Assembly (NCBI RefSeq): GCF_003725795.1
Contig: NZ_RBEE01000012.1
Span: 1 to 64,000 of the forward strand
From: Pedobacter jejuensis
GTDB lineage: Bacteria; Bacteroidota; Bacteroidia; Sphingobacteriales; Sphingobacteriaceae
Length of the DNA: 64,000 nt
Direction: 5' to 3'
Below are positions 9,366-38,080 of the stretch, one piece after another (positions within the stretch are counted from its first letter, which is position 1; each line of letters opens with the position of its first letter). Position numbers and translations under genes: made by a program. The notes beneath the pieces were generated by a model, which saw only the letters and a list, made by a program, of their open reading frames with translations, ran no database searches and was not told where the DNA came from.

Positions 9366-9374
9366 AATTTTAAT

Positions 9375-11736: not shown

Positions 11737-11743
11737 AGACAGG

Positions 11744-16524: not shown

Positions 16525-19500
16525 TTAAGGGTTGTTTAAGGAAATTATTTGATTGCATTCTGCGGCAATATCTGCCAGGTTCTTTGTAAAAAAATCGGCA
16601 ATAGCCACGTGCACACCGATTTCCTGACGCATCTGCGCGATAACTCTGATTACCAGGAGCGAACTGCCTCCGATATTGAAAAAAAGATCTGTCGAACTTA
16701 TCCTATCGATAGATAGGAATTCTTTCCAAATGGCGGCAATTTTTATCTCAAGCTCCGTACTGGGTTCTCGGTATTCATCTCCCACCAGGGCATGCATTGA
16801 AAGTTGTGCCAGGTAGTTTCGGTCGATCTTACCTGAACTTGTTAGTGGAATTTCTGGCAGGTTTATAAATGCAGAAGGCATGTAATATGCAGGTAAGCAT
16901 TTACTGATGACCTTTCTCAATTTTAAAGTCGATACCGCATCAGCAGCCGTAAAGTAGGCAATGAGCTTATTTCCATAAACGTCTTCACGAACGATTACTA
17001 CAACTTCGTTGACCAGTTTGCTTTCTATTAGCACACTCTCAATTTCTCCGGTTTCGATGCGGTATCCCCGTATCTTGACCTGATTATCGTTTCTGCCTAA
17101 ATATTCTATACTGCCATCCGGCAACCATTTGCCGATGTCTCCAGACTTATACATTTTACTTCCTGGGCCCGGTCTGAAAGGATCCGCTAAGAATTTACTG
17201 TCTGTCATTTCAGGAAGGTTTAGATATCCTCTGGCCAAACCAGAACCTATGATATAAAGTTCGCCTGGCACTCCGATTGGAACAGGTAGCTGATGTTGGT
17301 CCAGGATATATACCCCCAAAGTCGGGATTGGTTTACCTATTATACTTTTTGAACTATTAAGATGAGTAATGGAAATCTCCTGAAAAGTTACGTGTACAGT
17401 CGTCTCAGTAATCCCATACATATTTATGAGCCTTGCATAACCAATTGTCTGATGTAATGGTTTTAATTTTACTGGGTTAAGTGCCTCTCCTCCAAAGATT
17501 ACGTATCTTAATGAAAGCTGCTCAACAATTTCGCCAAGGAAATCCTGTAATAAATAAAAAGCTGAAGGTGTCTGATTCAGAACTGTTACACCCTGCTGAA
17601 CCAATAATGCAGAAAATCGCGAAACATCTTTCACTATCTCCTCTTCAACGATAACCAACTTGGAACCATTAAACAATGCACCATACATTTCCCACACAGA
17701 AAAATCGAACCAAAAAGAATGGAACAGCGTCCAGACATCCTGACCGTTGAAATTAAATAATGATTTATCGTTGCAGAACAGTCCTACAACATTAAAATGT
17801 TCAATCATCACGCCTTTTGGTTTCCCGGTTGAACCTGAGGTATAGATCACATAGGCTAGATCAGCTGGCGTGCATTCCGAGGTTAATTTTGAATCTGGTT
17901 CCAAACTGATTTCAGCCCAGTCAACATCTAGTTCTATTCGTAATAGATCTTTTCTGGCAGCACATACTTCACGAGAGTTTGAGTGGGTCAATAGCATATT
18001 TCCCTGAGCATCCTCGATAAGGTAATCGATCCGCTCTTTAGGATATTGCGGATCAATTGGTAAATAGGCTGCTCCTGCTTTAAGTATCCCGATCATGCCC
18101 ACAACCATCTCACAACAGCGGGGCATACAGATTGGAATGATTGCTCCTCTTTTTACACCTTTTTTACGGAGGTAATTACCCAACCTGTTTGAGCGCTCGT
18201 TAAGTACTTTATAGCTGAGCCGGGTTTCGCCGCATATGAGCGCAATAGCATCAGCAGAGCGGATCACTTGCTGCTCAAAAATATCTACGATGGTTTTTTC
18301 TGAGGCGTAAGGAACTTCTACATTATTGATTAATTTAAGTTGCTCCTCATCTGTTAATAATGGAAAACTATTGATCGAACCTGACGGGTTTTTTAACAGA
18401 TTAGCGATAATACTTTTGTAATGGCCAGCCATTCGGCTGATGGATTCTTGCTGAAAAAGCGCAGTGCTATATTCGATGTTTACTTCGAGTCCCGTTTTGG
18501 TTTCTTCTACAAAAAAAGAAAGGTCGAACTTGCAAGTAGGCTGAAAAGTCCTTTCAAATGAAACATCAAGATCTGCCATACTGAGCAATAGGTTGCTGTC
18601 TTCCTTGTAGACCATCGAAAACATCACCTGGAAAAGAGGGTTCGTCCCACGCTGACGGTCTTTGCTTAAGGATTCAACAACCTTGTCGAAAGGAACTTCT
18701 TCGTTTTCGGAGGCCTCTAATACGGTGTTTTTTATCTGCTGTAAAAGAGTATCAAAAGATGGATCCTGCTCTAGGTTACTGCGGATAACCACTGTATTGA
18801 CAAAAAAACCGATTAGCCCCTCGGTATCAGCAGGAATTCTGCCTGCAACCGGGGTACCCACGCTAATATCTTCCTGACCGCTGTAACGTGATAACAGTAC
18901 GTTAAATGCAGTGAGCAATGTAATATATAAGGTTGTTTGCCGATTCATGCAATATGACTGCAAATCTTCATATACCTTTCCGCTTATTGGGAATAGAAAC
19001 GTTGCTCCGGCCCTACTATGAACTTTAGGTTTATTAAAATCGAAAGGCATATTTAATTGGGCTGAGCCTGAAAGTCTTCCTTTCCAATATTCAAGCTTAC
19101 CTGATAACCTTTCGGGGGTTAAATATTTCCGCTGCCAGATGGCATAATCAGCATATTGGGCAGCCAGTGTTTCCAGCATCGAACCAACTCCAGAATGATG
19201 GCTATTGTACAGAGAACCGATTTCCCTGAGCAGAATGGGGATTGACCACCCATCAAAACCAATATGGTGGAAATTCATGATTAGAATGGACTCATGCTCC
19301 CCAACCAGCATAAGTTCAGCCCTAAGGTTATAATCAGATAATAGGTTAAAGGGCTTGTTGATGAACTGGTTTATAACCGAACGGACCTCATCTTCGGTTT
19401 CATTGCCTGAAAATACAATCTTGGTGAGTTTCCAAAGTGAGGATGGCAAAATGGACTGAAACCCCTGTCCGTTTTCATAATCTATCACCGTGCGCAATAT

Positions 19501-22500
19501 TTCATGACGCTCAACTAAAAATTGAAGTGCTGAATAGAGAGCTTGCTGATCGAGCAAACCTTTTATACGTAAAACAACGGATATGTGGTAGGCGATACTG
19601 CCTTCTGACTGGTCAATGAACCACATCCGTTCCTGCCCAAAAGATAAAGGTATCTTAGTCGGCCTTTCTATAGCGGTTATTTTTCCCTGGCTGCCTACTT
19701 TATCGGCACTTTCCAAATACATGGCCAAATCATGCAAAACTGGATAGCTGAAAATATCCTTGGGAAATAAATTTAGCCCTATGGTTCTGCGAATTTGGGA
19801 ACAGAGCCTGATGGCAGATAGAGAATGGCCACCCAGATGAAAAAAATTATCCTTTACACTAATCCGATCTATATTAAGTACAGCTTTCCAGATTTCCGCC
19901 AAATTTATTTCCATACTGCTACAGGGCATCATAAAATCACGGTCTTCTATGTAAGTTTCTGCAAAACCAAGAAGTGTTTTTTTATCTATCTTGCCATTAG
20001 AAGTCAAAGGGATTTCTGGTACTTCAATCAATAGCCCTGGAATCATATAGTGAGGCAATACATTGTTGAGATATGATAAAATACCATATCTGTCAAATCG
20101 TTTGCTTGGCACGACATAAGCCGCGATTCTGAGTTCATTGGACTTATTTCCGGTTACCAATACAACTGTTTTTTTGACCAGCGGGCATTTTGCGATTACC
20201 ATTTCTATTTCAGCTGGCTCTATCCTGTACCCCCGTATTTTGACCTGATCATCATTTCGACCTAAATATTCAATATTCCCGTCAGGCAACCATTTACCTA
20301 TATCTCCGGTTTTATACATCCTCTCTCCTGGATGCTGGCTAAATGGGTCGTTCAAAAATCTAGTTTTAGTTAGCTCGGGAAGATTTAAATATCCTCTGGC
20401 CAAACCAGGACCTGAAACATAAATTTCACCAGGTTTACCAATTGGAACCAAATGCTGGTGCTGGTCAAGTATATAAACATTCAGCGTAGGAATTGCCTTG
20501 CCAATCATGCTTCTTGAACTGGACAAATCTGAATTTGAAACTTGGTAGAAGGTTACGTGAACTGTGGTTTCAGTTATTCCGTACATATTAATTACCCTAG
20601 CTGCACCGACAGTTTGGTCAAACGACCTTAACTTCACTGGATTTAGTACTTCCCCGCCAAATATTAGATATTTCAGTGACAGATGATGAACATTATCTAC
20701 AAGAAAATCCTGGAGGACATAAAAAGAAGAGGGCGTTTGATTCAGTATCGTTACGTCTTGCTGAACTAAAAAATCAGCAAATCGTTCGCTATCCTTTGCT
20801 ACCTCATCTTTAACAATAATTAAACGCCCCCCGTAAAACAATGCCCCATACATTTCCCATACCGAAAAATCAAAGCAAAAGGAATGAAACAGCGGCCATA
20901 CATCTTCAGCGCTGAAATCAAACAACGGATTTTCATGATAAAATAGTCTCACTACATTGATATTTTCTACCATTACCCCCTTTGGTCTTCCTGTTGAGCC
21001 AGAGGTATAAATGACATATGCAAGGCTGGATGACTGATATTGAACAGTGGGGTTAAGGTCTGACTGCAGATTTATTTCCTGCCAATCTGCATCAATTATT
21101 ATCCAAAGAAGCGCTTCGCTATAGATTACGTTTGCAAAGCAATCCGAACTGGTCAATGCAATATGAGCATTGGCGTCAGCTATCATAAAATCTATCCTCT
21201 CCTGAGGGTATTGCGGGTCCATTGGAAGATAAGCCCCGCCTGCCTTTAATATACCCAATACACATACGATCATCTCCCAGCTGCGGTACATCAAGATGGG
21301 TACTATAGTTTCGGGTTTTACCCCCTTGGATTTAAGATAGTACCCCAGCTTGTTTGATCGTTCATTTAGTTCCCGATAGGTAAGAATGGTTGCTCCGTCT
21401 ATCAGGGCAACAGCATTAGGTGATTTAACAACTTGCTCCTGGAACAAATCAATTATGGTTTTATCTTTAGGATATTGAACTTCTTGCCTAAAACTTTCTA
21501 TCACCAGGCGCTCATCTGAACTGAGCACTGAAATATTTTCAAGGGATTGTTCAGGTTTTTTTAAAACAGCATCAAGTATTAGATTTATATAAGAGATAAA
21601 CCGGTCTATAGATTCTTCCTGAAATAATTCTGTTCTGTAGCGTAGGCTCAAATTAAGTTCATCCTGATCGACAATTGCCTCGAAAGTAAGATCAAACTGG
21701 CAGGTTTTCGATTCAAACTCACAATAATCAACCTTCAAATCTCCAAACTGGAAGGAGCGCAGGTTCTCATGAAGTACCATGATGACGTTAAATAGCTGAT
21801 TTACATAAAAATCAGTTTTGATTTCAGGACTATCAAACAGCTGATCAAGAGAAAAATACTGATTTTTATAGCCTTGGATTACATTTCTAGTTAAAACTCT
21901 TAAATACTGCCTAAACGTATCCGTTTCCTGAACTATACTTTTTATCGCAACCGTATTTACAAACATTCCGATATGATCATTCGTAGAATTGTTACGACCT
22001 GAAAATGGAACACCAACAACAATATCCTGTTGTTGTGTGATCTTGTAAAGAAAAACTTTAAAAACACCAAGTAAAAAAACAAGCATTGTTGTTTTTTCAG
22101 AAGCGACAAACTGCACTATCTCGGTAGTTCTTTCTTTTGAAAGTTTAAAAACTTTACTCCTCCCCTTAAAATCCTGAGCATTAGGTTTACGGAAATCATA
22201 TGGCAGATTTAAAACAGATGGCTTTGTACCGAGATGCTGAAGCCAAAAATTCTTTTTTTCCAGTAGATATTCGTTGGAATACATCAATTGGGAATCTTCC
22301 ACAAACTTTTTAAATGACAATTCAGGTAAAATGCGCTTTTGACTATAGCAAGCAAAAAGATCTTTAATGAATATCCCAAATGAATACCCATCGGCCGCTA
22401 CGTGATGGGCAACAACAACCAATCTTAATTCGTTATCTGTTATACTTATTATTTTCGTTCTAATTAAAACGCCACTGCTTAGATCAAATTCCTTTAAACA

Positions 22501-22830
22501 GGCGCTATCAATTAAACTTTCCATAACAGCTGCCTGGTTATCAACATTTTTAATATCAATATATTCGTAGTCAGTAGATGTTTCCTTGATAGGCATGATC
22601 TGCTGTTTCAGCTCATCTAGATCGAAGGAAAATGTCAATCTTAAACTTTGGTGCCTATCAATAACCTGTTTGATCGCAGATTTCAACAGCTCAATTTCCA
22701 TATACCCTTTAATTGAATATACTCCGGTGATATTATAGGCTATAGATCTTTCCTGCGTTTGACTGGCCAGCCAAATGCCTCTTTGTGATGGTAATAAACT
22801 AAATTTTTGGTGATAATCCATTGACCTCAT
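16525..22830 (-). CDS. Two-module NRPS, C-A(Thr)-PCP-C-A(Thr)-PCP, no thioesterase
   Basis: 2101 residues. Condensation domain 1 spans about 8-440 (active site HHVAADG, 142-148). Adenylation domain 1 is about 460-955 (YTSGSTGRPKG 608-618; Lys947) and carrier 1 about 965-1045 (Ser1003 in LGGHS). Condensation domain 2 is about 1058-1500 (HHIGFDG 1188-1194), adenylation domain 2 about 1515-2010 (Lys2001) and carrier 2 about 2020-2095 (Ser2057). Aligned to GrsA, both A domains give the ten-residue code DFWNIGMVHK, the known L-threonine code: D654 F655 W658 N697 I723 G725 M749 V757 H758 K947, and D1709 F1710 W1713 N1752 I1778 G1780 M1804 V1812 H1813 K2001. There is no epimerase, thioesterase or reductase domain. 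Domain 1 is a C domain with no loading module, so an acyl or aminoacyl donor must arrive in trans. Ends 3 bases before the hydrolase genes. Confidence 0.95.
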   Translation of the reverse strand: MRSMDYHQKFSLLPSQRGIWLASQTQERSIAYNITGVYSIKGYMEIELLKSAIKQVIDRHQSLRLTFSFDLDELKQQIMPIKETSTDYEYIDIKNVDNQAAVMESLIDSACLKEFDLSSGVLIRTKIISITDNELRLVVVAHHVAADGYSFGIFIKDLFACYSQKRILPELSFKKFVEDSQLMYSNEYLLEKKNFWLQHLGTKPSVLNLPYDFRKPNAQDFKGRSKVFKLSKERTTEIVQFVASEKTTMLVFLLGVFKVFLYKITQQQDIVVGVPFSGRNNSTNDHIGMFVNTVAIKSIVQETDTFRQYLRVLTRNVIQGYKNQYFSLDQLFDSPEIKTDFYVNQLFNVIMVLHENLRSFQFGDLKVDYCEFESKTCQFDLTFEAIVDQDELNLSLRYRTELFQEESIDRFISYINLILDAVLKKPEQSLENISVLSSDERLVIESFRQEVQYPKDKTIIDLFQEQVVKSPNAVALIDGATILTYRELNERSNKLGYYLKSKGVKPETIVPILMYRSWEMIVCVLGILKAGGAYLPMDPQYPQERIDFMIADANAHIALTSSDCFANVIYSEALLWIIIDADWQEINLQSDLNPTVQYQSSSLAYVIYTSGSTGRPKGVMVENINVVRLFYHENPLFDFSAEDVWPLFHSFCFDFSVWEMYGALFYGGRLIIVKDEVAKDSERFADFLVQQDVTILNQTPSSFYVLQDFLVDNVHHLSLKYLIFGGEVLNPVKLRSFDQTVGAARVINMYGITETTVHVTFYQVSNSDLSSSRSMIGKAIPTLNVYILDQHQHLVPIGKPGEIYVSGPGLARGYLNLPELTKTRFLNDPFSQHPGERMYKTGDIGKWLPDGNIEYLGRNDDQVKIRGYRIEPAEIEMVIAKCPLVKKTVVLVTGNKSNELRIAAYVVPSKRFDRYGILSYLNNVLPHYMIPGLLIEVPEIPLTSNGKIDKKTLLGFAETYIEDRDFMMPCSSMEINLAEIWKAVLNIDRISVKDNFFHLGGHSLSAIRLCSQIRRTIGLNLFPKDIFSYPVLHDLAMYLESADKVGSQGKITAIERPTKIPLSFGQERMWFIDQSEGSIAYHISVVLRIKGLLDQQALYSALQFLVERHEILRTVIDYENGQGFQSILPSSLWKLTKIVFSGNETEDEVRSVINQFINKPFNLLSDYNLRAELMLVGEHESILIMNFHHIGFDGWSIPILLREIGSLYNSHHSGVGSMLETLAAQYADYAIWQRKYLTPERLSGKLEYWKGRLSGSAQLNMPFDFNKPKVHSRAGATFLFPISGKVYEDLQSYCMNRQTTLYITLLTAFNVLLSRYSGQEDISVGTPVAGRIPADTEGLIGFFVNTVVIRSNLEQDPSFDTLLQQIKNTVLEASENEEVPFDKVVESLSKDRQRGTNPLFQVMFSMVYKEDSNLLLSMADLDVSFERTFQPTCKFDLSFFVEETKTGLEVNIEYSTALFQQESISRMAGHYKSIIANLLKNPSGSINSFPLLTDEEQLKLINNVEVPYASEKTIVDIFEQQVIRSADAIALICGETRLSYKVLNERSNRLGNYLRKKGVKRGAIIPICMPRCCEMVVGMIGILKAGAAYLPIDPQYPKERIDYLIEDAQGNMLLTHSNSREVCAARKDLLRIELDVDWAEISLEPDSKLTSECTPADLAYVIYTSGSTGKPKGVMIEHFNVVGLFCNDKSLFNFNGQDVWTLFHSFWFDFSVWEMYGALFNGSKLVIVEEEIVKDVSRFSALLVQQGVTVLNQTPSAFYLLQDFLGEIVEQLSLRYVIFGGEALNPVKLKPLHQTIGYARLINMYGITETTVHVTFQEISITHLNSSKSIIGKPIPTLGVYILDQHQLPVPIGVPGELYIIGSGLARGYLNLPEMTDSKFLADPFRPGPGSKMYKSGDIGKWLPDGSIEYLGRNDNQVKIRGYRIETGEIESVLIESKLVNEVVVIVREDVYGNKLIAYFTAADAVSTLKLRKVISKCLPAYYMPSAFINLPEIPLTSSGKIDRNYLAQLSMHALVGDEYREPSTELEIKIAAIWKEFLSIDRISSTDLFFNIGGSSLLVIRVIAQMRQEIGVHVAIADFFTKNLADIAAECNQIISLNNP

Positions 22831-22862: not shown

Positions 22863-25283
22863 TCAGAGTTCACTAGGGTCTCCTTTTTTCTTTTCCTGAT
22901 CATCATTCTTTACGTTCCGCTTATTTTTAACCACTTTTTCTTTCAACTGACCGATATTATAATAAATGTTGAGGTAAAACCCCCTTGCCAGTTTTTTGGT
23001 TCTGACATCCTGATAAAAATCTGGCGTAATCAGCGTAGATGTTCTTATCCTGTAAGCGGGAAAAATGCTATAGGCATTGAAGATGATGCCCAGCTTATTT
23101 TTGAAAAACTCTTTATTCAGACGGAAGGTTGAATTTACAAAGCTATTGGTCTTTCCCTGAAGGGTAATTACTGGGCCATAATTCTTTACAACTAATCCCA
23201 GCTGCCAATCATTTTTCAGGTTATAGGAAAGGTCTGCATTGGTATTATACTGCAATCCACTGTTGCTGCTATTATTTCCATTCACTGTACCTTTGAGCCA
23301 TACCTGCTGTACCAGTCCGTTTACATTTATCCTAAGGCGTTTAACGATGGGGTAATTGATGCTGATGTTGGCTCCAAGTATATTGCTGCTACCAGTATTT
23401 TCATAGTTAAACCGTGTAATTTGGTCATTACCCAATAGCGATACCTCTTGGATAGTATTATTGGATCTGGCATAACTCAGGCTAATATTGAGATTACCTT
23501 TCGACGACCGATTGTAGGCGAGGTCAAAATTATGACTGATTACTGGTTGAAGCCTGGGGTTACCAGAAGTATAGATAAGTGGATTAGAACGGTTTTCAAA
23601 TGGGTTTAACTGTAAGATTCCAGGACGCAATACCCGCTGGGTATATCCTATGTTTATACCTGAGGCACCGTTAAGTCTTCTCTGCACTGAAAGCGATGGA
23701 ACTAAATTAGCATATTTAACATTTAGATCGGCGTTGGCTGTTATAAATGTTGCATTTACCAGCGTACTCTCCAGCCGGATACCTGCTTTTACAGTCCAGT
23801 TTTCCTGCTTCAGTTGATAGGAGTTATAGATACTATAAACATCCTGATCGTAATTAAACTCATCGGAACTTAAAAACGAAATACTTCCCAAATTTCTTTC
23901 TGTATTAAAGTCACTGTAGCTGCTTCGGGCAATCAGTTTTATCCCACCCTCGATACTAAGTTTTTTTGAAGGTTTAATATAATCCAATTGCGCAGTTTGC
24001 TCAACCAAGCCAGAGTTGTTTCGCTGATTAACTATGTCAGCGGAATAATTGAATACCTGGCCAGTAGAGTTGGTGTTATCATAATCCGAGCTGGTTTTGG
24101 AATATCGGTATGATGCTGTCAGCAGCATATCTTTATGCTTCTTGAAACCCAATTGGTAATTCAGCCCAAAATCATCTACTTTATCGTCTGTAAGTGTCGT
24201 ATTTTGAACGTTATAAGCATAGCTGAGGTTACCTGTTTCAGCGTAGCTTCTTAAAAACTGTTCTCCATCATATTTCCGTTTTTCAAGCGAGAGTAATACC
24301 GAACCTGTTAGGAGGTTAAGCGAATCGATCTCATAACTTAGGTCAGCGTTGAAAGGGGTGGAAGTTCCAGTGGGTTTCGAATCTGCATCCTGTTCCACCC
24401 TTGACATGGAGCCTAGCATAGGAGCCCTGTAACTGGTGGTCATTGTATTGGGATAATCCCTGAACCAACGACCTATATAACCCGTAGCGCCAAGTTTGTT
24501 CTTTTTTACTGTAAATGCGGCACCGACACCTGAAGCGATTATTGTATTATCAAAGGCTTCTAAAATCAGGTTATACCCTTCCAGGTCAGTATTGGTGATA
24601 ATGTTGATAATTCCTGCAGTTCCTTCACTATCATATTTAGCCGAGGGAGTGGTAATAACCTCGATCTTCTTCACATTTTTCGCCCTCATTGCACGCAGCG
24701 CCATTGTGGGATTCTTAGCCATAACGCCAGAGGGTCTTCCATTTACAAATATCTTGAAGTCAGTGCCACCCTTTAATTTAACATTATCCTCATCATCCAG
24801 CGATAAAAGGGGAACCTTGCGGAGCACCTCGAGCATATTTTCACGTTTGCTATCTGGGTCGGCCGTCAAATCATAGCTAATACGATCTACCTCCTGGGTA
24901 ACTAACGGCCTGTTTCCTGAAATCACTACTTCCTGAAGCTGGTTATCTTTGGTACTAAAAGGAATATTTCCAAGGTCAGTCACAGTTTTTGAAACATCGG
25001 TTAAAGCTATTGCGACCGTTTTCAGATGATATCCTAAAGCCAGAATGTTGAGCGAGTAATTGTCATTTTTTATATTTACCAACTCGAAACTGCCATCTTC
25101 TTTGGTGAGGGTACTTTTGATCGCGGTTCCGCTATGGCTTTTTAAGGCTACAGTCACGAAACTGACAGGTAGTTTAGATGCCGAATCTATAACCTTGCCC
25201 TTAACCGTAACCAGTTTCTGCGCAGAAGCATATGAGGAAAATAGGCAAAGCGCAACTATTGAGAGGTAAAATTTGTAGATCAT
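22863..25283 (-). CDS. TonB-dependent outer-membrane receptor (CarboxypepD_reg-like, OMP_b-brl)
   Basis: 806 residues. A signal peptide (MIYKFYLSIVALCLFSSYASAQ) is followed by a CarboxypepD_reg-like beta-sandwich (about 26-100), a plug domain (LQEVVISGNRPLVTQEVDRI, then IEVITTPSAKYDSEGTAGII), and a beta-barrel to the C-terminus. There is no sigma/anti-sigma pair next to it. It sits between the third radical SAM gene and the NRPS in one operon-like run (32 bases before the NRPS), so it is probably dedicated to the product: uptake of the product or its metal complex, or passage of it through the outer membrane. The ligand is unknown. Confidence 0.88.
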   Translation of the reverse strand: MIYKFYLSIVALCLFSSYASAQKLVTVKGKVIDSASKLPVSFVTVALKSHSGTAIKSTLTKEDGSFELVNIKNDNYSLNILALGYHLKTVAIALTDVSKTVTDLGNIPFSTKDNQLQEVVISGNRPLVTQEVDRISYDLTADPDSKRENMLEVLRKVPLLSLDDEDNVKLKGGTDFKIFVNGRPSGVMAKNPTMALRAMRAKNVKKIEVITTPSAKYDSEGTAGIINIITNTDLEGYNLILEAFDNTIIASGVGAAFTVKKNKLGATGYIGRWFRDYPNTMTTSYRAPMLGSMSRVEQDADSKPTGTSTPFNADLSYEIDSLNLLTGSVLLSLEKRKYDGEQFLRSYAETGNLSYAYNVQNTTLTDDKVDDFGLNYQLGFKKHKDMLLTASYRYSKTSSDYDNTNSTGQVFNYSADIVNQRNNSGLVEQTAQLDYIKPSKKLSIEGGIKLIARSSYSDFNTERNLGSISFLSSDEFNYDQDVYSIYNSYQLKQENWTVKAGIRLESTLVNATFITANADLNVKYANLVPSLSVQRRLNGASGINIGYTQRVLRPGILQLNPFENRSNPLIYTSGNPRLQPVISHNFDLAYNRSSKGNLNISLSYARSNNTIQEVSLLGNDQITRFNYENTGSSNILGANISINYPIVKRLRINVNGLVQQVWLKGTVNGNNSSNSGLQYNTNADLSYNLKNDWQLGLVVKNYGPVITLQGKTNSFVNSTFRLNKEFFKNKLGIIFNAYSIFPAYRIRTSTLITPDFYQDVRTKKLARGFYLNIYYNIGQLKEKVVKNKRNVKNDDQEKKKGDPSEL

Positions 25284-25347: not shown

Positions 25348-26514
25348 TTATATTCCATTACGGTATAATAAAACGCATTTGGAACATACTGGCATCAGGC
25401 CTTTGCTTAAAATATTTCGCAGGTAATTAAACTTACCACTGTTCCAGATTTCGAGTAAGCTATGCGAATTTAGATCCCCGATAGAAAGTTCCGGGAAAAA
25501 TTTACTACATGTTCCAACCTTTCCATCAGCAAGGACTTCAATCCGGTTGGAAAGTGCATAACATTTCTTTTTGGGAACATAGGTGTCTAGTATGAAATCA
25601 TTAATTTCATTTGCTTCGAGTTGTTGCTGAAATCTAACCCGCAATTTCCAAACCCTGGAGTTTAGCTTGAAGATTTGTTCATTTAAAACTTCAGCTGATT
25701 GAGGACTAAGTTTAAAAGAATATGAATGCCAACTGGCAACGCTGTGGGATGGGGTACTGTCGTGGTGGGCAAAATTTTCAGCATAAAACCGGTCCATTAA
25801 TTCCGCTCTTTCAGTTGAGATAAACCATGGATAATTAAAATAAATGGAATCAATTCCCAAATCTTCAAAATACTCGACAAACTCGTAAAGATGTGGAACT
25901 AATTCATCATTTAAAACAACATTTACAGAAACCGTACCTTTATAGTTCCCGTTCTTTTGCTCTTCAAGGACCAGTTTCACTTGTTTGATCAGTTTTTCAA
26001 AAGTTTTTTTCCCCCTTAATGCATCATTTACTTCGCCAAGCCCATCGATACTAACCAGTAAGGCTAAGTTATCAGATATTTTCAGCAAAGACTCCATACG
26101 CTTCTCGAGCAGGATGCCATTGGTACACATTACGGTGTATCTTTTATCTTTTTCTAAGAGGTCAGCAATTTCATCCCATTTGGTATGGTATAGCGGCTCG
26201 CCTCCCCATAGGTAGAGCCTTGATTTTGCGGGATGGGTTTCCTGTAAAATTTTTTGGAAAATATCAACAGCAATTTCCTTGTTCTGAATTTCTTTGTTAT
26301 AACTATGGAAATAGCCGTCATCATTCCACTGATAACACATTTTGCACCGCAGGTTACAAGCGTAGGTCAGTTGAATATCCACTTCGGTTGGAATGGGTGA
26401 TGCATAAGTCGGATTTGTGAAAAGCGCCTTTTTGGTTGTGGATAAATCTTTGATTCTTTTTTGCAGCCGATCAAAGGTTTCCGGGTCAAATTTTACAGAT
26501 GATTTAAGTTCCAT
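25348..26514 (-). CDS. Radical SAM/SPASM domain enzyme (third in cluster)
   Basis: 388 residues from ATG 26514 (MELKSSVKFD). The frame is open further upstream, but that part lies inside the neighbouring gene. The radical SAM CX3CX2C cluster motif is at Cys53, Cys57 and Cys60 (ACNLRCKMCYQW), followed by WGGEPLYH and, at the C-terminus, a SPASM-type cysteine region (CYALSNR ... GTCSKFF ... CSKCVLLYRNG) for auxiliary Fe-S clusters. Such enzymes make radical-based changes to peptides or amino acids. It diverges clearly from the two related enzymes at 29239 and 31127. The start overlaps the stop of the GT-like gene upstream, a sign of coupling. The substrate is not known. Confidence 0.88.
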   Translation of the reverse strand: MELKSSVKFDPETFDRLQKRIKDLSTTKKALFTNPTYASPIPTEVDIQLTYACNLRCKMCYQWNDDGYFHSYNKEIQNKEIAVDIFQKILQETHPAKSRLYLWGGEPLYHTKWDEIADLLEKDKRYTVMCTNGILLEKRMESLLKISDNLALLVSIDGLGEVNDALRGKKTFEKLIKQVKLVLEEQKNGNYKGTVSVNVVLNDELVPHLYEFVEYFEDLGIDSIYFNYPWFISTERAELMDRFYAENFAHHDSTPSHSVASWHSYSFKLSPQSAEVLNEQIFKLNSRVWKLRVRFQQQLEANEINDFILDTYVPKKKCYALSNRIEVLADGKVGTCSKFFPELSIGDLNSHSLLEIWNSGKFNYLRNILSKGLMPVCSKCVLLYRNGI

Positions 26515-27610
26515 AGATAAAGTTGTTGATATAGGTTTTGATGTAATCTTTGGCGGAGGCGCGCATTTCCACAAGGTTTTTGTGCATCTCGCTGAGTAGT
26601 TTTTCGGAAAAACCCGAGGCTTCCCAATTTTCGAATGAAGTCCCCAATCCGAAGTGCTCCCACAATAGCGCATTTTTATTTTCATAACCCCCAAATGGTT
26701 TAAGGGATACTAAAGGTGTAGCGGAGGACAAGGAATCCAAAAGCGTACCGGCGCCCGGTTTACTTATAATCGCCATACTATTTCGTATAATGTTATAAAT
26801 CTCTGGATAATGAAAATTTTCTTTAAAGCTGACCTTTCCTGAAAAATCTGCCTGGCCAAATGGGGGGAACTGATGCAGACCGTTTTGATCAAGATCCCAT
26901 GTATTCCACTGTGGATCTATCATATAATAATTATTTAACTCATGCCGCTGGTCGAGGTCACCATATTCATAGGCGATAACATCGAGCATTAGCTTAGATC
27001 GGTTCAGTTCATTCAGCTTTTCTTTATAAGTGCCCATGCCCCATCCTCCACCATGAATCACAAAAGATTTTCCACGTTTTTCATATGGGATCACCGGTGC
27101 GCCTGATACATCGATGTAATAGGAAACCTTTTTATTTTCCCAATTATTAAACCATACGTGGTTATACTCGGCCGAAGCGGTATCAAACAAGCTCCATGAG
27201 GTTGAAGGAGCAGAATCAACATGGCACAAATCGATAAACAATTCCGCTATACCAACACGATCGCCATAGCGTCGTAAAAGGGGAATCCAAAAGCCGGAAA
27301 ATACCATAAAATGCCTGCGCTCTTCCTTCTGCCAAAGCGATAACAATTGTTCGACCTGGTATTCATCCAGGTGTGAGCTGGGATCTTTCGCGAGATTCTG
27401 ACCCATCAGCGCAAAAGAAAAATTTCTGTGAAAATTAATTTTCGCTTTTGGAACATTTTGCTTTTTGTGCTCAACCAAAAAATCTTCGAAAACATGGACA
27501 ACAGCAGCTAAGCCAGCTTGATTTAATTGCCTGTGAGCAAGGATGCCGGGAATATAGAACCCCAGTCCAGGACCTGCGCATAGAATTGAAATCGGGCTAG
27601 TTTTCGACAT
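26504..27610 (-). CDS. GT-B fold glycosyltransferase-like protein (MurG/UGT type)
   Basis: 368 residues. The N-terminus ISILCAGPGLGFYIPGIL resembles the glycine-rich start of GT-B enzymes, and near the C-terminus SKPGAGTLLDSLSSATPLV matches the donor-site region of MurG/UGT-like transferases. A glycosyltransferase role is likely but not certain, because the central part has no motif I can place. The start overlaps the stop of the ATP-grasp gene by one base and its end overlaps the third radical SAM start by 11 bases, so it is part of the same tightly coupled set. It may glycosylate the carrier-bound or released small molecule. Confidence 0.65.
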   Translation of the reverse strand: MSKTSPISILCAGPGLGFYIPGILAHRQLNQAGLAAVVHVFEDFLVEHKKQNVPKAKINFHRNFSFALMGQNLAKDPSSHLDEYQVEQLLSLWQKEERRHFMVFSGFWIPLLRRYGDRVGIAELFIDLCHVDSAPSTSWSLFDTASAEYNHVWFNNWENKKVSYYIDVSGAPVIPYEKRGKSFVIHGGGWGMGTYKEKLNELNRSKLMLDVIAYEYGDLDQRHELNNYYMIDPQWNTWDLDQNGLHQFPPFGQADFSGKVSFKENFHYPEIYNIIRNSMAIISKPGAGTLLDSLSSATPLVSLKPFGGYENKNALLWEHFGLGTSFENWEASGFSEKLLSEMHKNLVEMRASAKDYIKTYINNFIYGT

Positions 27611-28956
27611 TATAACAATCTTAGATTCAAGTTTTCAAACAGATTTAAGAGCCTGGTGTAGAGTTCGTCCATTTGCTTATGGTTTTTATAGATTAGACAT
27701 GCATAAAGCCTCCCCTTTACCATTCCTTTCACCATTTCACGACTTAGTTTGCTGTTGATGTCAAAAGTATTGGCAGATAAGGGAAGCAAGCCAGAAAGGT
27801 TATTCAAGTTAAACAAAAGATTATTTTCTTCAAGATTACGATACAGTTCCTCAAACGTTACCTCACCCGATGAACTAAAAGAAAATGTAATAAGGTTATT
27901 AAAGACTTGATAAGGAGCTAGATACTGGGTAACCCGAAGATTTAAGAAACTCATTGATTTGCGGGCATTGATTTCTACTATAGGCACCATAGCGCCGTCT
28001 TCCAGGATCATAGAATCAAGACATACCGGACCAAAATATCCTTCATTAAATAATTTGCCGGCTACCTTTTCTACTATACCGAAGTATCCTTTTTTTTCCA
28101 GCATTTCATAGAAGGATGGCAATATGCCTTGGATTCCCGAGAAGCTAAAACCTTTATTGTTCATTTGCTGGACCGCCATCAAATCATAACTTCCGTCTTC
28201 ATTAATGGTAAATTGTGAAGAAAAATCAACTTTTCTTGCGACAAACGGTTCGATTAAAAATTGGGTTTCCTTACCCGTTAGTTCTTGTTTATTTAAATAT
28301 TTGCAGATGTGGTTTAACGTATGTTCTTTTTCAATCAGGATATTTCCCTTTCCAGATACGCCAAAAGGGTCTTTTATTAAGAAGGGCATCCGCTCCAGCA
28401 GCTCCAGCCCCAAAGTCCTTAAATCTTCGGAGGAATTAATGATGTGCCCACCCAAATCTGAATGACAATCCTGCGCAACAACTGTAGAAAAGATTTTGGA
28501 ATTGACTTTTTTAGTTACCTCAAGAGATGGGATTCTTGTATTTACGGCAAAATGTCCACATAATTCTGCGGCAAAAGGAATAATTGCAAATGGGGAAAGG
28601 CAATCAACACTTTCAAGTAACCCATTAAAGTAAAACTTATCTCTATGGTTATATATCAACTCACACATCCCTTGAGAAAAATCAGGAATTTGTAAATCTA
28701 TATTTTCCAGTGGTTGTTCATTATTTTTAAATTTGAAACCCAATTCCCAGAGATATTCCCGATGGAGCTTATTCATGGGATACCTTGTGCATACAACATC
28801 ATCGGCATGATTCGAAAACAAAAACTGGGTTTCATCCATGGCTTCAATTATGGTATCGGCCTGTTTATCGACAAACGAGGGCAAATTACTCATGGAATCT
28901 TTCCGCCAGAAGCGCTCGGCATTAAATGATGCAAGATATAGGGTATTTTTTGCCAT
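27610..28956 (-). CDS. ATP-grasp domain carboxylate-amine/thiol ligase
   Basis: 448 residues. The ATP-grasp core is visible: Lys195 in FLIKDPFGV, the flexible glycine loop GVSGKGN (199-205), an adenine-contact region LIEPFVARKVDF (234-245), and the metal ligands Asp314 (CLDSM), Glu328 and Asn330 (EINARKS). These enzymes activate a carboxylate as acyl phosphate and join it to an amine or thiol. The neighbouring gene, 15 bases upstream, is a free carrier protein, so loading a carboxylic or amino acid onto that carrier, or extending what it holds, is the attractive reading. That is inference. The pre-ATP-grasp N-terminal domain is unassigned. Confidence 0.82.
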   Translation of the reverse strand: MAKNTLYLASFNAERFWRKDSMSNLPSFVDKQADTIIEAMDETQFLFSNHADDVVCTRYPMNKLHREYLWELGFKFKNNEQPLENIDLQIPDFSQGMCELIYNHRDKFYFNGLLESVDCLSPFAIIPFAAELCGHFAVNTRIPSLEVTKKVNSKIFSTVVAQDCHSDLGGHIINSSEDLRTLGLELLERMPFLIKDPFGVSGKGNILIEKEHTLNHICKYLNKQELTGKETQFLIEPFVARKVDFSSQFTINEDGSYDLMAVQQMNNKGFSFSGIQGILPSFYEMLEKKGYFGIVEKVAGKLFNEGYFGPVCLDSMILEDGAMVPIVEINARKSMSFLNLRVTQYLAPYQVFNNLITFSFSSSGEVTFEELYRNLEENNLLFNLNNLSGLLPLSANTFDINSKLSREMVKGMVKGRLYACLIYKNHKQMDELYTRLLNLFENLNLRLL

Positions 28957-28971
28957 CGTTTATTAAAAAGA

Positions 28972-29217
28972 CTAGTTGTTATTCTGATGGCTGGAAAGAA
29001 AAGCTGCAAATGACTTAATCGAATGCAGGTGTGAGATATCGATCTTATCAAAATCTAGTTCGATATCGAGCTCTTCTTCAATTTGTAGCATAAAATCTAT
29101 CATCTGCAATGAGTCTAATCCCACCTCATTTATAATATCAGAATCTTCGGAGAGTGTTGAAACCAAAACTGGATCATCTGTTACCTTCGCGATAACTTTT
29201 TTTATTGTTTCTATCAT
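28972..29217 (-). CDS. Free-standing acyl/peptidyl carrier protein
   Basis: 81 residues, the normal size of a discrete carrier domain. The phosphopantetheine site is Ser36 in EVGLDSLQMIDF, and the acidic helix 2 (LQIEEELDIELDF) is typical. It would be made active by the Sfp-type transferase at 5791-6423. It lies between a radical SAM gene and the ATP-grasp gene. It is not the housekeeping fatty-acid ACP: the core GLDSL and its position point to a pathway-specific carrier. It may hand its cargo to the first condensation domain of the NRPS, or hold the substrate of the radical SAM enzymes. Confidence 0.92.
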   Translation of the reverse strand: MIETIKKVIAKVTDDPVLVSTLSEDSDIINEVGLDSLQMIDFMLQIEEELDIELDFDKIDISHLHSIKSFAAFLSSHQNNN

Positions 29218-29238
29218 TTTCTTATTTTTAGATTTATT

Positions 29239-30327
29239 TTAATTTGTACCTGAAGCCGGGTTATAATAATACCTGCAACATGCAGTACAGATTGGGAGAA
29301 GTTGCTTGCGCAGATAAGACCTTAATTTTTTTAATTTTTCACCATTCCAGATAGCATTGAATCCAGTTTCGTAGACATTGCCCAAAATATGATCATAAAA
29401 TGTGTGACAGACTACAACATCTCCTTTGGCCGTTATTTCTGCGTAAGTTAAAGGAAAGGAACAATGGTGCTTTTTATCTCCCATTTCATTCCAATTTCCT
29501 TCGAAATAGCTCTTAAAGTTGCTTGGCTCCAATGTTTTCAGCGAACTATTAAAATTTATCCCCCTTTCAATGCACGCTTCTTTCAGGCGAACCAGCTGGC
29601 TTGTAATTAAAACAGTATCCATTTCTGAAAATATTGCCGGATCCTGAACAAGGCCTTTAGCGATCGGAGCTGTTGTATTGAGCTCAAATTCTTCATTCAG
29701 TATTTTTGCATACTCGGAATGCTCTTCGGCTGTAGCGAAATTCTGCAACTCGATGCTAATGCTGCCAATCTGCGATAAATCCAGGTTATCGAAAAACAGT
29801 TCGTTGATGTATGCATAGTTAAGTGGTGTCACGGTTAATGAAATACCAAGCTTAGGCGTTGTTACATTCCTCTGGTTTTTTAAATAAGAAATCCTGTCAA
29901 TCCCTTTGATTACCCGTTTATATACACCATTGCCCCTCTGTCGGTCATTTATATCGGGTGGCCCATCTAGTGAAATCCATAGCAAATCCACCTTGCTATC
30001 AATTAATTTTTCCGCATTTTTTTCATTCAATGTTCCATTGGTATCTATGTAAGTCTTAATTTCTTTTTCTTTCAGAAATCTAAGAATTTCGAATATCTCC
30101 GGGTGCATTAAGGGTTCTCCTCCATAAAGACCGATATAGGGTTTAGTATCCCCGCAATCGTTAATTATATCTTTGATAACTTCAAAACTAAGAAGCTTTA
30201 AATTTTCCTTTCCAAAATCGAGGTAAGAGCCTGTTTCTCCCCATTGGTAGCACATTTTGCAGCGCAGGTTACATTTTTCGACAAGCTGAAGTACAATCCA
30301 CTTTGGTGCTTTATTATCGTTGAACAT
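29239..30327 (-). CDS. Radical SAM/SPASM domain enzyme (paralogue of 31127-32212)
   Basis: 362 residues from ATG 30327 (MFNDNKAPKW). A TTG 30 bases upstream overlaps the previous gene and is less likely. The 4Fe-4S motif is at Cys19, Cys23 and Cys26 (KCNLRCKMCYQWGETGSY), followed by LYGGEPLMHPE and DTNGTLNE. The C-terminal SPASM-like region has HCSFPLTYAEITAKGDVVVC and CTACCRYYYNP. The protein is alike over its full length to the enzyme at 31127-32212, so the two arose by duplication. It starts 10 bases after the methyltransferase stop and ends 21 bases before the carrier-protein start. Confidence 0.88.
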   Translation of the reverse strand: MFNDNKAPKWIVLQLVEKCNLRCKMCYQWGETGSYLDFGKENLKLLSFEVIKDIINDCGDTKPYIGLYGGEPLMHPEIFEILRFLKEKEIKTYIDTNGTLNEKNAEKLIDSKVDLLWISLDGPPDINDRQRGNGVYKRVIKGIDRISYLKNQRNVTTPKLGISLTVTPLNYAYINELFFDNLDLSQIGSISIELQNFATAEEHSEYAKILNEEFELNTTAPIAKGLVQDPAIFSEMDTVLITSQLVRLKEACIERGINFNSSLKTLEPSNFKSYFEGNWNEMGDKKHHCSFPLTYAEITAKGDVVVCHTFYDHILGNVYETGFNAIWNGEKLKKLRSYLRKQLLPICTACCRYYYNPASGTN

Positions 30328-30337
30328 GGCGTAGCGG

Positions 30338-31123
30338 TTAATTATTAAGTTTTTCAATTACAACCAATCCATCGGCATTTGGAAAAAACGAGTTATAGTT
30401 CGTGATGCATTTTTGACGAACTGCCTTTAGAGATTTAATTTTTAAATTATCGGGCAGGTTTTTTTCGAGGTGCGATTTTAGTCCTTTTTCGTTGTATCTC
30501 CAGATTACGCCATCTATATTTGAATTCATCATATAACTGTGGTCAGGAGAATTTGGCAATAAATCAATATGATCGCTAATGATAATTGTGCCATTATCAG
30601 CCAAGAGGCGTTCGCATTCTTTAAACACTTTTTTATGGTTTTTGATATGATGAAGGCATCTTGCAAAAACAATGGTTTTAAAGAAGCCATCCTCAAAAGG
30701 TGCGTTTTTAATATCTGAATGTATAAAGCTGGTAAAAGCTTTCCGTTTGATGCCGAAATTGATGCTATTTATATTGGTATCCAGATTGTATAGCTCTAGA
30801 TTTTCAGCTTTTCCTTTCCTTTTAAGGTAGATATTTAATGCTCCTGTACCGCAGCCAACCTGGAGTACTTTTTCGGATAAGGGAGGAAGCACATTGTAAA
30901 CGTTGTAAAATAAAGGAAAATTCATAACTAATATATAAGCCTCATAGGCTAAAGGATAGCGCTCATAAAGCCTTACTATATAACTTTTATAGAATGGATC
31001 CTTCTTTATCTGTCTTTTATGAACAACTGTATTTATAAAAAGAAGCGGAAATAAAATAATACAGAATATGATAAAAGAAAACCTTATCAGACCAATTTCG
31101 ATGTTTTCGAGCGTTTTTTTCAT
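30338..31123 (-). CDS. Membrane-anchored class I SAM-dependent methyltransferase
   Basis: 261 residues. One hydrophobic N-terminal segment (FSFIIFCIILFPLLFINTV, about 15-33) suggests a membrane anchor. The methyltransferase core starts with VLQVGCGTGALNIYL (motif I) and continues with FARCLHHIKNHKKVFKECER and GTIIISDH. It sits between the two related radical SAM genes: 3 bases after the first and 10 bases before the second. It may methylate the product of those enzymes, or a lipid or sugar attached to it. The acceptor is not known. Confidence 0.8.
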   Translation of the reverse strand: MKKTLENIEIGLIRFSFIIFCIILFPLLFINTVVHKRQIKKDPFYKSYIVRLYERYPLAYEAYILVMNFPLFYNVYNVLPPLSEKVLQVGCGTGALNIYLKRKGKAENLELYNLDTNINSINFGIKRKAFTSFIHSDIKNAPFEDGFFKTIVFARCLHHIKNHKKVFKECERLLADNGTIIISDHIDLLPNSPDHSYMMNSNIDGVIWRYNEKGLKSHLEKNLPDNLKIKSLKAVRQKCITNYNSFFPNADGLVVIEKLNN

Positions 31124-31126
31124 ATT

Positions 31127-32212
31127 TTAGTAGTTAGAACTTGGATTATAATAATAGCTACAGCAGGAAGTGCAAATGGAGAAAAGTTCTTTTCTTATAA
31201 ATTTCCTCAGGTTCTGCCAGCGTTCTCCGTTCCATATATCCAAAAAGTCTGTGTTATAGATGTTACCCATTGGCAGGTCATAAAAAGTATGGCACCCTAC
31301 TACATCACCCGTTGCGGTAACTTCTGCCTGAATAAATGGGAATACACAATGGCTCTTTCTATCCTCCATTTTATCCCATTGTGCAGAAAAATAGTTTTTA
31401 TAGTTGTCGGTGCTTACCGTTTTGGGTGAGGTATTGAGAATAATTTGTTTCGAATCACACAAGATTTTAACCTTATGAATTTGTTCGGTAATGCGATCAA
31501 TATCAAGCGAAGCAAAAATAGAAGGGTCTTGAACCAGCCCACTTGCAATCGGGGCCATGGTTTTTAACTTGAATTCGGAATTCAAGACCTCAATATAATC
31601 AAGATGGTTGTCAACGGTTGCGAAATTCTGCATTTCGATACTTACACCTGCAAAATCATCGAGATTGATATGGTTGAAGAAAAAATCCTCAATATGTTCA
31701 GCATTATTTGGTGTAACGATGTAGGTAATCCCCAATTCAGGATTTTTGCTACCAGTAGCCTTTTTTAGCTTGGTAAGCTTATCAATCCCCTTCATTACCC
31801 TCTTGTATACGCCGTTACCACGTTGAAGGTCATTTATTTCCTGCGGACCATCTATGGATACCCACAAACGGTTTATTTTTGAATCGACCAGTTCTTGTGC
31901 ATACTTTTCAATTAGCGTTCCATTTGTGGCCGCATATAAGTAACACCCCTGGTCGATAATTAATTCTATGATTTCAAATACATTGGGATGCAGGAATGGT
32001 TCTCCCCCAAATAAACCAAAAGTTGGTTTTGTGCCTGCGCAATCTTTAATAATTTTCTTTACGTGCTTAAATGATAAGGTCGTTAATTTTTCTTTTTCAT
32101 GATAAGATCCCGTATCACCCCATTGATAACACATTTTACATCGTAAATTGCATTTTTCAATAAGTTGAAAAACGATCCAATTTGGACTACTTAATTTGTC
32201 GGATATATTCAT
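31127..32212 (-). CDS. Radical SAM/SPASM domain enzyme (first gene of the run)
   Basis: 361 residues. The radical SAM motif is at Cys21, Cys25 and Cys28 (KCNLRCKMCYQWGDTGSY), followed by LFGGEPFLHPN and ATNGTLIE. The C-terminal SPASM-like part has HCVFPFIQAEVTATGDVVGC and CTSCCSYYYNP. It is the closest relative of the enzyme at 29239-30327; the shared blocks run over the entire length. It is the first gene of the minus-strand run, with 417 bases of non-coding DNA upstream that should hold its promoter. No precursor-peptide gene lies next to it, unlike most SPASM enzymes of RiPP pathways. Confidence 0.88.
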   Translation of the reverse strand: MNISDKLSSPNWIVFQLIEKCNLRCKMCYQWGDTGSYHEKEKLTTLSFKHVKKIIKDCAGTKPTFGLFGGEPFLHPNVFEIIELIIDQGCYLYAATNGTLIEKYAQELVDSKINRLWVSIDGPQEINDLQRGNGVYKRVMKGIDKLTKLKKATGSKNPELGITYIVTPNNAEHIEDFFFNHINLDDFAGVSIEMQNFATVDNHLDYIEVLNSEFKLKTMAPIASGLVQDPSIFASLDIDRITEQIHKVKILCDSKQIILNTSPKTVSTDNYKNYFSAQWDKMEDRKSHCVFPFIQAEVTATGDVVGCHTFYDLPMGNIYNTDFLDIWNGERWQNLRKFIRKELFSICTSCCSYYYNPSSNY

Positions 32213-32629: not shown

Positions 32630-33574
32630 TTATTGTAATTTAAGCCAATCGTTATACTTTGTCAGCCCATCTAAAAGCGTATTTTTAGGATTATAATTTA
32701 GTAATTGTTTGGCTTTAGAAATAGCCGCACAAGTTATTCGAACATCCCCAGCCTGTCTTTCAGTAAATTTCAGGGTTATTTTTTTCCCAGATATTGATTC
32801 AGCAATCTTAATAACTTCATTTAGCCTGACAGCCTTTCCGCTCCCAACATTAATTATCTCAAAATTGGACTTTTGATAGAAAATGGCAGAGACAAAAGCG
32901 TCTGTTACGTCGTCTACATAAGTGTAATCTCTCGAGTCATTTCCATCACCATAAACACTGAATTCTTTATTGTGGTCTAATGCGTCAAATAATTTGCATA
33001 TCGCCAAATCAGCTCGTTGTAAAGGGCCATACACGGTAAATAACCTTAAAGCAATAAACCTAATCCCGTAAAGGTGGCTATATACCCGGCCCAACGATTC
33101 TCCGGAAATCTTAGTTGAAGCATAGGGACTAATAGGCTTAAGTTCGTTATTTTCCATCCATGGCAATTCACTATTTTCACCATAAACGCTGCTGGAAGAG
33201 GCAAAAACAAACTGCGTTATATGTTGATTTTTAGCAAAAGCCAAGAGACGTTGTGTTCCTACAATGTTATTTTCAACATAGTGTTCAGGGATGTCCAGGC
33301 TCGAACGTACACCAGTCTCGGCAGCCAGATGTACAATAATGTCGATACCTTTAATATTTTCGAGAAGATGAGCATCTCTGATGTCCCCTTCTAAATATTG
33401 AAAATTCGGATTTTCGATATTTAGAACGTACTTCTTATTCCCGCTAACACCTTGCGGATTTTCTTTATTATAATTATCAAGGCATACGACGCTATTTTCG
33501 GGATGCCGAAGTAGTTTCAGAATTAAGTTGCTACCGATGAATCCTGCACCGCCGGTAACGAGTATTTTTTTCAT
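32630..33574 (-). CDS. NAD-dependent nucleotide-sugar epimerase (UDP-hexose/uronate 4-epimerase type)
   Basis: 314 residues of the extended SDR family. The NAD-binding TGGAGFIGSN is at residues 7-16, and the catalytic Tyr-Lys pair lies in SPYASTKISGESLGRVY, with Ser in FASSSSVYGE. The ending and overall length fit UDP-glucuronate or UDP-N-acetylglucosamine 4-epimerases and GDP/UDP-sugar dehydratases; the exact reaction is not fixed by sequence. It lies upstream of the radical SAM run on the same strand but 417 bases away, so it may have its own promoter. It probably supplies a nucleotide sugar to the glycosyltransferases. Confidence 0.85.
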   Translation of the reverse strand: MKKILVTGGAGFIGSNLILKLLRHPENSVVCLDNYNKENPQGVSGNKKYVLNIENPNFQYLEGDIRDAHLLENIKGIDIIVHLAAETGVRSSLDIPEHYVENNIVGTQRLLAFAKNQHITQFVFASSSSVYGENSELPWMENNELKPISPYASTKISGESLGRVYSHLYGIRFIALRLFTVYGPLQRADLAICKLFDALDHNKEFSVYGDGNDSRDYTYVDDVTDAFVSAIFYQKSNFEIINVGSGKAVRLNEVIKIAESISGKKITLKFTERQAGDVRITCAAISKAKQLLNYNPKNTLLDGLTKYNDWLKLQ

Positions 33575-36952: not shown

Positions 36953-36962
36953 GATCTCTGCC

Positions 36963-37988: not shown

Positions 37989-38080
37989 TGTTCTTTATTT
38001 TGACCTTATTAGCAACAGCAGCCGTTTTTTACCCCACAGAAATCATTAAAAAAATAAAATTTGTTATATCTATATGATTA

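Follow-up and report, generated by a model that had tools for sequence, protein, structure and literature searches.

What do radical S-adenosylmethionine (SAM) enzymes act on in a gene cluster that seems to lack a precursor peptide? The question is raised by a stretch of 64,000 nucleotides from Pedobacter jejuensis (contig NZ_RBEE01000012.1, positions 1 to 64,000; hereafter the window), in which seven genes follow each other on the minus strand in the order radical SAM enzyme 1 (rSAM1), methyltransferase, rSAM2, acyl/aminoacyl carrier protein (ACP), ATP-grasp ligase, glycosyltransferase (GT) and rSAM3. The original prediction, made from the letters of this DNA, had read the group as a module in which a small molecule is ligated to the free carrier by ATP-grasp chemistry, altered by the radical enzymes while tethered, and passed to a non-ribosomal peptide synthetase (NRPS). 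We find that the ACP, the ATP-grasp ligase, a GT-B glycosyltransferase and a radical SAM enzyme form a conserved unit that is linked and co-inherited, and this unit offers a possible answer to the question.

Four genes that stay together

The gene order and the tight spacing noticed earlier are borne out on the minus strand, with intergenic gaps of 3, −20 (rSAM2 taken from its TTG start), 21, 15 and −1 bases from rSAM1 through the GT gene. The rSAM3 gene was listed from a TTG at 26694, which is over-long; the ATG at 26514 fits the starts of its relatives (most type A enzymes, see below), and a gene read from this ATG shares 11 bases with the GT gene. Pfam recognized Radical_SAM and SPASM domains in all three radical SAM enzymes, Methyltransf_11 in the methyltransferase and PP-binding in the ACP, and the free carrier is as it had been described, matching PF00550 with its serine in a GLDSL site. 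The window ATP-grasp and GT-like proteins had no Pfam match at E 1e-3, and their predicted folds were assigned by family profiles together with structure models. The nearest solved relatives of the ATP-grasp model are amino-acid and peptide ligases. The GT is predicted to have a GT-B fold, and shares this fold and a glycine-rich C-terminal motif with the MurG/GT28 and GT1 glycosyltransferases; it differs from them in the missing Pfam match and in an identity of about 8–14% among the matches listed.

A scan of genome contigs with the single ATP-grasp sequence gave no match; an alignment used as query on the GTDB species genomes yielded 132 relatives, and the 80 best loci were retained. As 58 of these are from Paenibacillus, the counts are non-independent; the other 22 are from Clostridium, Lachnospiraceae, Cellulosilyticum, Pedobacter, Niastella, Cyclobacteriaceae, Bacteroidales, Chlorobiaceae, Nostoc, Prochloron, Methylococcaceae, Chromatiaceae, Margulisbacteria and unclassified Bacillota. 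Within 10 kb of the ATP-grasp gene, an ACP is encoded in 79, a GT in 77 and a radical SAM enzyme in 77 of the 80 loci, and all three are found in 76; three of the four exceptions are contig ends (L024, L037, L066), and L007 is the fourth. In 64 of the 80, fewer than 50 bases separate the ACP gene from the ATP-grasp gene. A profile census at a cut-off of 30 bits, covering 81 loci (the 80 and L086), detected the ACP in 80, the GT in 78 and the radical SAM enzyme in 78, and the phosphopantetheine serine motif is kept in all 81 cassette ACPs found, including that of the window.

The radical SAM enzymes fall into two subfamilies, type A with a CSKC or similar end (rSAM3 in the window) and type B (rSAM1 and rSAM2); the split was made by motif, and four CQGC rows (L029, L062, L064, L074) were put in type B by hand. 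Almost all cassettes have type A, and type B is found in 18 of the 81 loci. Methyltransferase relatives above 100 bits accompany type B: 10 of these 18 loci have one, and the remaining 63 have none. Searches of 28 whole genomes, drawn from those of the 80 loci, gave 35 matches of the GT family, all at E < 1e-100 (limit 1e-20), and, at E 1e-60 or better, 35 type A and eight type B enzymes. The GT and the type A enzyme pair one to one in 35 of 35 cases, on the same contig and within about 8.2 kb (paired by hand), and a strong ATP-grasp match is present for 33 of these pairs. There are also weaker ATP-grasp matches, including one (G405:C13) whose contig has no GT match.

The identity matrices of ATP-grasp ligase, GT, radical SAM enzyme and ACP correlate across 76 cassettes, with r values of 0.82–0.91 that are uncorrected for species phylogeny and that none of 500 permutations reached. 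Three cassettes of Paenibacillus tritici are 36–38% identical to each other in the ATP-grasp protein and 77–90% identical to cassettes of other species, and therefore they look inherited as units. In the window's own family, an ATP-grasp match at E 1e-30 was found in 3 of 399 sampled genomes, including the window genome, a patchy distribution that is typical of biosynthetic clusters. The gene content of the cassette, the folds or families of its members, their linkage and their joint inheritance thus support the earlier grouping of carrier, ATP-grasp ligase and radical SAM enzyme as one module, to which the glycosyltransferase has to be added. The original prediction had listed the GT-like protein but missed that it is a GT-B enzyme and a core member, and therefore sugar chemistry belongs in the model.

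Single-cluster radical enzymes and the missing precursor

The CX3CX2C motif is present in all 97 radical SAM proteins (three from the window and 94 from the loci). All 96 complete proteins have an auxiliary pattern of C-X14-21-C and then CX2C with a short tail of 6–17 residues, which takes the form CX17C...CX2C in the three window enzymes; the CX2CX5C of SPASM domains occurs in none of the 96, and the cysteines of a second auxiliary cluster are absent. By the definitions of the seven-cysteine SPASM motif (PMC6231123) and of twitch as a truncated SPASM domain with one auxiliary cluster (PMC9012708), the C-termini are, judged by their cysteines, of the single-cluster twitch type, and a full SPASM reading was rejected. 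The earlier premise that these are SPASM enzymes of the type that matures ribosomally synthesized and post-translationally modified peptides (RiPPs) therefore has to be given up. With RiPP SPASM maturases, the cassette enzymes share the radical SAM core and the first half of the SPASM domain, but not the second auxiliary cluster, and neither a RiPP recognition element (RRE), sought in the three window enzymes, nor a precursor gene was found. A profile of 21 of the enzymes matches BtrN with a whole-sequence E of 1.6e-12, and the auxiliary domain contributes 39 of the 50 bits.

That no precursor-like gene lies between the seven genes was confirmed in the window. The original prediction had also named a conserved small peptide gene in homologous loci as grounds for its refutation, and this search was run: the 80 loci yielded 526 small open reading frames (ORFs) in their gaps and 1.5-kb flanks, and no conserved precursor family was found among them, although a precursor that is short, divergent or overlapping might be missed. 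The search took ORFs of at least 20 codons outside called genes in gaps of at least 60 bases and joined families at blastp E 1e-4; the window was inspected separately. The largest family that spans several loci is another carrier-like protein (five loci), and the other listed families are common to two or three close relatives. The gaps in the window are too short for a precursor, save for the 417 bases upstream of rSAM1, where a 75-amino-acid ORF lies on the opposite strand together with a 40-amino-acid ORF starting with TTG; relatives of neither were sought. An ORF of 89 amino acids upstream of the epimerase gene (33790–34059) had no Pfam match, and its relatives were likewise not sought. 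Neither PqqD nor an RRE was matched by Pfam in the three window radical SAM enzymes, and NCBIfam matched many peptide maturases, all below cut-off. A RiPP reading was rejected on the basis of the 80-locus search. As a separate observation, a small carrier-like protein with ESIQ or ESVQ in place of the DSL motif is encoded near five Paenibacillus cassettes (among the sites are L037:2237, L050:8577 and L080:8544).

A proposed carrier-tethered assembly and its rivals

Our preferred reading, to which we give a little less than even credence, is that a glycosylated and radical-edited amino-acid unit is assembled on the carrier and then handed over to the adjacent NRPS. A phosphopantetheinyl transferase would first generate the holo-ACP. 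The ATP-grasp enzyme, which likely loads an amino acid onto the free ACP, would activate the carboxylate as acyl phosphate and join it to the carrier thiol, and the unit would likely stay bound to this carrier as a thioester. We infer that the GT-B enzyme then transfers a sugar from a nucleotide donor onto the tethered unit, and that rSAM3 edits the sugar or the bond that links it, by oxidation, epimerization or another reaction, while the unit is carrier-bound, assisted in the window by the two type B enzymes and the methyltransferase. The first condensation domain of the NRPS would accept the unit, two residues, probably threonine, would be added, and release by a hydrolase and ABC export would complete the pathway.

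The NRPS begins with a condensation domain (HHVAADG), and therefore it should expect an upstream donor; both of its adenylation domains read D-F-W-N-I-G-M-V-H, a code for threonine. The hand-over that had been proposed fits the window NRPS, and it fits the stand-alone condensation proteins encoded beside the ACP in four of the five further Bacteroidota loci counted (L008, L016, L055, L086; the Chlorobiaceae locus L002 was left out of this count). In the fifth, the Bacteroidales locus L006, no such protein was detected, and a comparison of condensation domains did not show the window's first one to be closest to the stand-alone ones. In relatives, the transfer may be carried out by BtrH-like, KASIII-like or stand-alone condensation proteins: a candidate acyl-transfer enzyme is found in 51 of the 81 loci (37 of 58 in Paenibacillus and 14 of 23 elsewhere), and the enzyme type differs. 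With neighbours typed by Pfam on ten family representatives and on ten genes that lie in Pedobacter, Niastella and Nostoc loci, two BtrH-like families occur in 23 and 17, KASIII-like proteins in 10 and condensation domains in 6 of the 81 loci; a pyridoxal phosphate (PLP)-dependent decarboxylase of the Orn/DAP/Arg type occurs in 14, all from Paenibacillus, a GFO/IDH-type oxidoreductase in 45, an ABC ATPase in 53, an ABC-2 permease in 44, and sugar epimerase genes resembling that of the window in 15. The operon order of the Clostridium loci L019, L023 and L025 (ACP, ATP-grasp, GT, radical SAM, GFO/IDH, KASIII) reads like the order of steps.

A broader proposal, which we advance with more reserve and regard as doubtful in its full extent, is that the cassette is a previously unrecognized, portable thiotemplated machine for glyco-amino acids, in which the ATP-grasp ligase charges the carrier, the GT-B enzyme glycosylates the carrier-bound residue, the twitch enzyme rewrites the sugar while still on the carrier, and interchangeable transferases (condensation domain, BtrH-like, KASIII-like, NRPS) lead to different products in several phyla. 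If true, building blocks with a sugar and a radical modification would be made in this way by a wide range of bacteria (Bacillota, Bacteroidota, Cyanobacteria, Gammaproteobacteria and others), a set of carrier-dependent radical SAM enzymes would be defined, and the cassette would be a natural case in which a single building-block module works with several kinds of acyl-transfer enzyme. The combination of ACP, ATP-grasp, GT-B and twitch radical SAM enzyme would then be a handle for genome mining that precursor-peptide searches miss. The original prediction had called the pathway type unusual, which was overstated: butirosin and closthioamide already provide examples of ATP-grasp loading and of editing on a carrier, and the cassette logic is therefore not wholly new. 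The novelty seems to lie in the steady association with a GT-B enzyme and a twitch radical SAM enzyme over several phyla. Literature searches in an openly licensed library that excludes subscription papers, several of them aimed at butirosin, BtrN or closthioamide, listed no paper on this combination.

In butirosin biosynthesis, BtrJ is the ATP-grasp ligase that loads the carrier. The butirosin set (BtrI/BtrJ/BtrK/BtrH and BtrN) resembles the cassette in its small free carrier, ATP-grasp ligase and twitch radical SAM enzyme, and Paenibacillus relatives also have a BtrH-like transferase and a PLP decarboxylase. In contrast to butirosin, the cassette core includes a GT-B enzyme and a larger radical SAM enzyme, and profiles of the BtrH-like and PLP-decarboxylase (BtrK-like) proteins, built from Paenibacillus relatives, gave no window match above 30 bits. 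In Paenibacillus loci such as L018 (4653–6295), the cassette is accompanied by another ATP-grasp protein, related to PGM1, a second carrier, a BtrH-like gene and a PLP decarboxylase, and these additions look like the butirosin-type side-chain set. No protein named BtrJ was among the 120 matches listed for the cassette ATP-grasp or the 120 listed for the second Paenibacillus one, with sequences not compared directly. The PGM1, BesA and LdmS ATP-grasp ligases (3wvq, 8yi6, 7r8p) join amino acids or peptides; the cassette enzyme is 13–16% identical to them, and its partner is likely a carrier thiol. 'BtrJ-like' has been named as an ATP-grasp clade (PMC4431377), BtrK decarboxylates glutamate bound to the carrier BtrI (PMC7857480), and BtrH is an ACP:aminoglycoside acyltransferase (PMC10318531). 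Closthioamide (CtaD, CtaE, CtaC, CtaG) shares the NRPS-independent thiotemplated logic, with ATP-grasp ligase and carrier encoded together: CtaD is predicted to load the carrier CtaE, and the Fe-S enzyme CtaC is active only on the CtaE-bound substrate (PMC6772006). However, CtaC is a thioamide synthetase of the adenine-nucleotide hydrolase type and not a radical SAM enzyme, and no glycosyltransferase is named in the available part of that source.

Several observations weigh against the carrier-tethered assembly. No acyl-transfer candidate was recognized within the flanks of 30 of the 81 loci, no ACP or GT was detected beside the ATP-grasp and radical SAM genes of L007 (12.7 kb), and in L003 and L043 the radical SAM gene lies about 8 kb off on the opposite strand. 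The identity correlations bear the lack of phylogenetic correction in a set dominated by Paenibacillus, and two of the 35 clusters in the 28 genomes are without ATP-grasp. The core domain of the radical SAM enzymes scores higher against SkfB and against 5wgg (CteB) than against BtrN. SkfB is a twitch enzyme with a peptide substrate (PMC6231123), and therefore the twitch domain alone leaves the substrate class unsettled; BtrN oxidizes a free aminocyclitol and not a carrier-bound one (PMC9012708).

The clusters without ATP-grasp suggest that this enzyme may be replaceable, or they may be decaying. The Paenibacillus sister clusters L091 (P. silagei) and L092 (P. tritici) retain an intact ACP, the GT, both radical SAM types, a BtrH-like protein and the epimerase. 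Like the Paenibacillus loci L020 and L022, they also encode a separate adenosine monophosphate (AMP)-forming ligase together with a second carrier. The host genomes of L091 and L092 contain other cassettes with ATP-grasp; the ACP of these two clusters may be loaded in trans, or the clusters may be decaying, and the absence probably represents one evolutionary event. The retention of the ACP in these clusters fits a model in which the GT and the radical SAM enzyme need the carrier.

The main rival to carrier-tethered assembly borrows its logic from butirosin: the GT and the radical SAM enzyme would make and oxidize a free glycoside, the ACP and the ATP-grasp ligase would make an aminoacyl unit, and both would be joined last. 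The similarity of the auxiliary domain to BtrN, an oxidizer of a free aminocyclitol (PMC9012708), the BtrH-like proteins and the PLP decarboxylase beside the cassettes of relatives, and the two clusters that keep GT and radical SAM enzyme without ATP-grasp all speak for such parallel routes. We nevertheless consider them unlikely, if deserving serious attention, as the core families showed no gene that would provide a free aglycone or cyclitol, the ACP persists where ATP-grasp was lost, and the window gave no match to the BtrH-like or PLP-decarboxylase profiles. The four clusters with an AMP-ligase and a second carrier, two of which keep the ACP without ATP-grasp, could also be read differently, with the ATP-grasp enzyme as an ordinary peptide ligase whose amine substrates are free or carrier-bound, and with a different enzyme, for instance an AMP-forming ligase, loading the ACP. 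The closest folds, being amino-acid and peptide ligases, agree with this, but the close spacing of ACP and ATP-grasp genes in most loci and the finding that the only AMP-ligases among the Pfam-scanned window genes are NRPS domains make it improbable in our view. A RiPP pathway with a precursor encoded elsewhere, a graspetide-type or peptide ligase as the ATP-grasp enzyme and an unrelated ACP appears highly improbable: the radical SAM core domains do have their highest PDB scores with RiPP enzymes, and NCBIfam lists peptide maturases, though below cut-off, but this stands against the result of the small-ORF search, the absence of PqqD or RRE matches and of full SPASM domains, and the membership of GT and ACP in the core.

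Surroundings of the cassette

The coordinates of the cassette and of its neighbours are collected in Table 1. Beside these features, the methyltransferase has an N-terminal hydrophobic stretch that resembles a membrane anchor, and the genome holds four phosphopantetheinyl transferase matches, including the one in the window.

Table 1. Features of the cassette and its surroundings in the 64,000-nucleotide window
Feature	Position	Strand	Basis
rSAM1, accessory type B radical SAM enzyme, twitch domain	31127..32212	-	Pfam Radical_SAM and SPASM, cysteine motif, relatives' starts
SAM-dependent methyltransferase, hydrophobic N-terminal stretch	30338..31123	-	Methyltransf_11 PF08241, E 1e-15
rSAM2, accessory type B radical SAM enzyme, twitch domain	29239..30357 (TTG start as listed)	-	Pfam, cysteine motif, 54% identity to rSAM1
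Free-standing acyl/aminoacyl carrier protein (ACP), 81 amino acids, serine in GLDSL	28972..29217	-	PP-binding PF00550, E 9.6e-9
ATP-grasp ligase, predicted carrier loader	27610..28956	-	Family profiles and structure models
GT-B glycosyltransferase, core member	26504..27610	-	Family profiles and structure models
rSAM3, core type A radical SAM enzyme, twitch domain	25348..26514	-	PF04055, PF13186; CX3CX2C and CX17C...CX2C
Nucleoside diphosphate (NDP)-sugar epimerase/dehydratase that may supply the sugar; 417 bases upstream of rSAM1	32630..33574	-	PF01370, E 2.3e-54
Outer-membrane beta-barrel, TonB-receptor type, between cassette and NRPS	22863..25283	-	PF14905, E 5.6e-76
Two-module NRPS, condensation-adenylation-thiolation twice (C-A-T-C-A-T), predicted acceptor of carrier-bound unit	16525..22830	-	Pfam; HHVAADG and HHIGFDG motifs
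Two alpha/beta hydrolases, candidate release enzymes	14882..16521	-	PF00561, PF12146
ABC-2 type exporter, ATPase and permease	13308..14895	-	PF00005, PF01061
4'-Phosphopantetheinyl transferase, candidate carrier activator	5791..6423	+	PF01648 above cut-off at 6091-6306

Downstream of the NRPS, a co-directional run at 7109–13282 encodes four GT4-type glycosyltransferases and a MurJ-like flippase, which may serve further glycosylation of the product or may mark the start of a cell-surface locus. Upstream of the cluster, at 34256–38695, an outer-membrane receptor, a FecR protein and an extracytoplasmic function (ECF) sigma factor are encoded, likely a cell-surface signalling trio.

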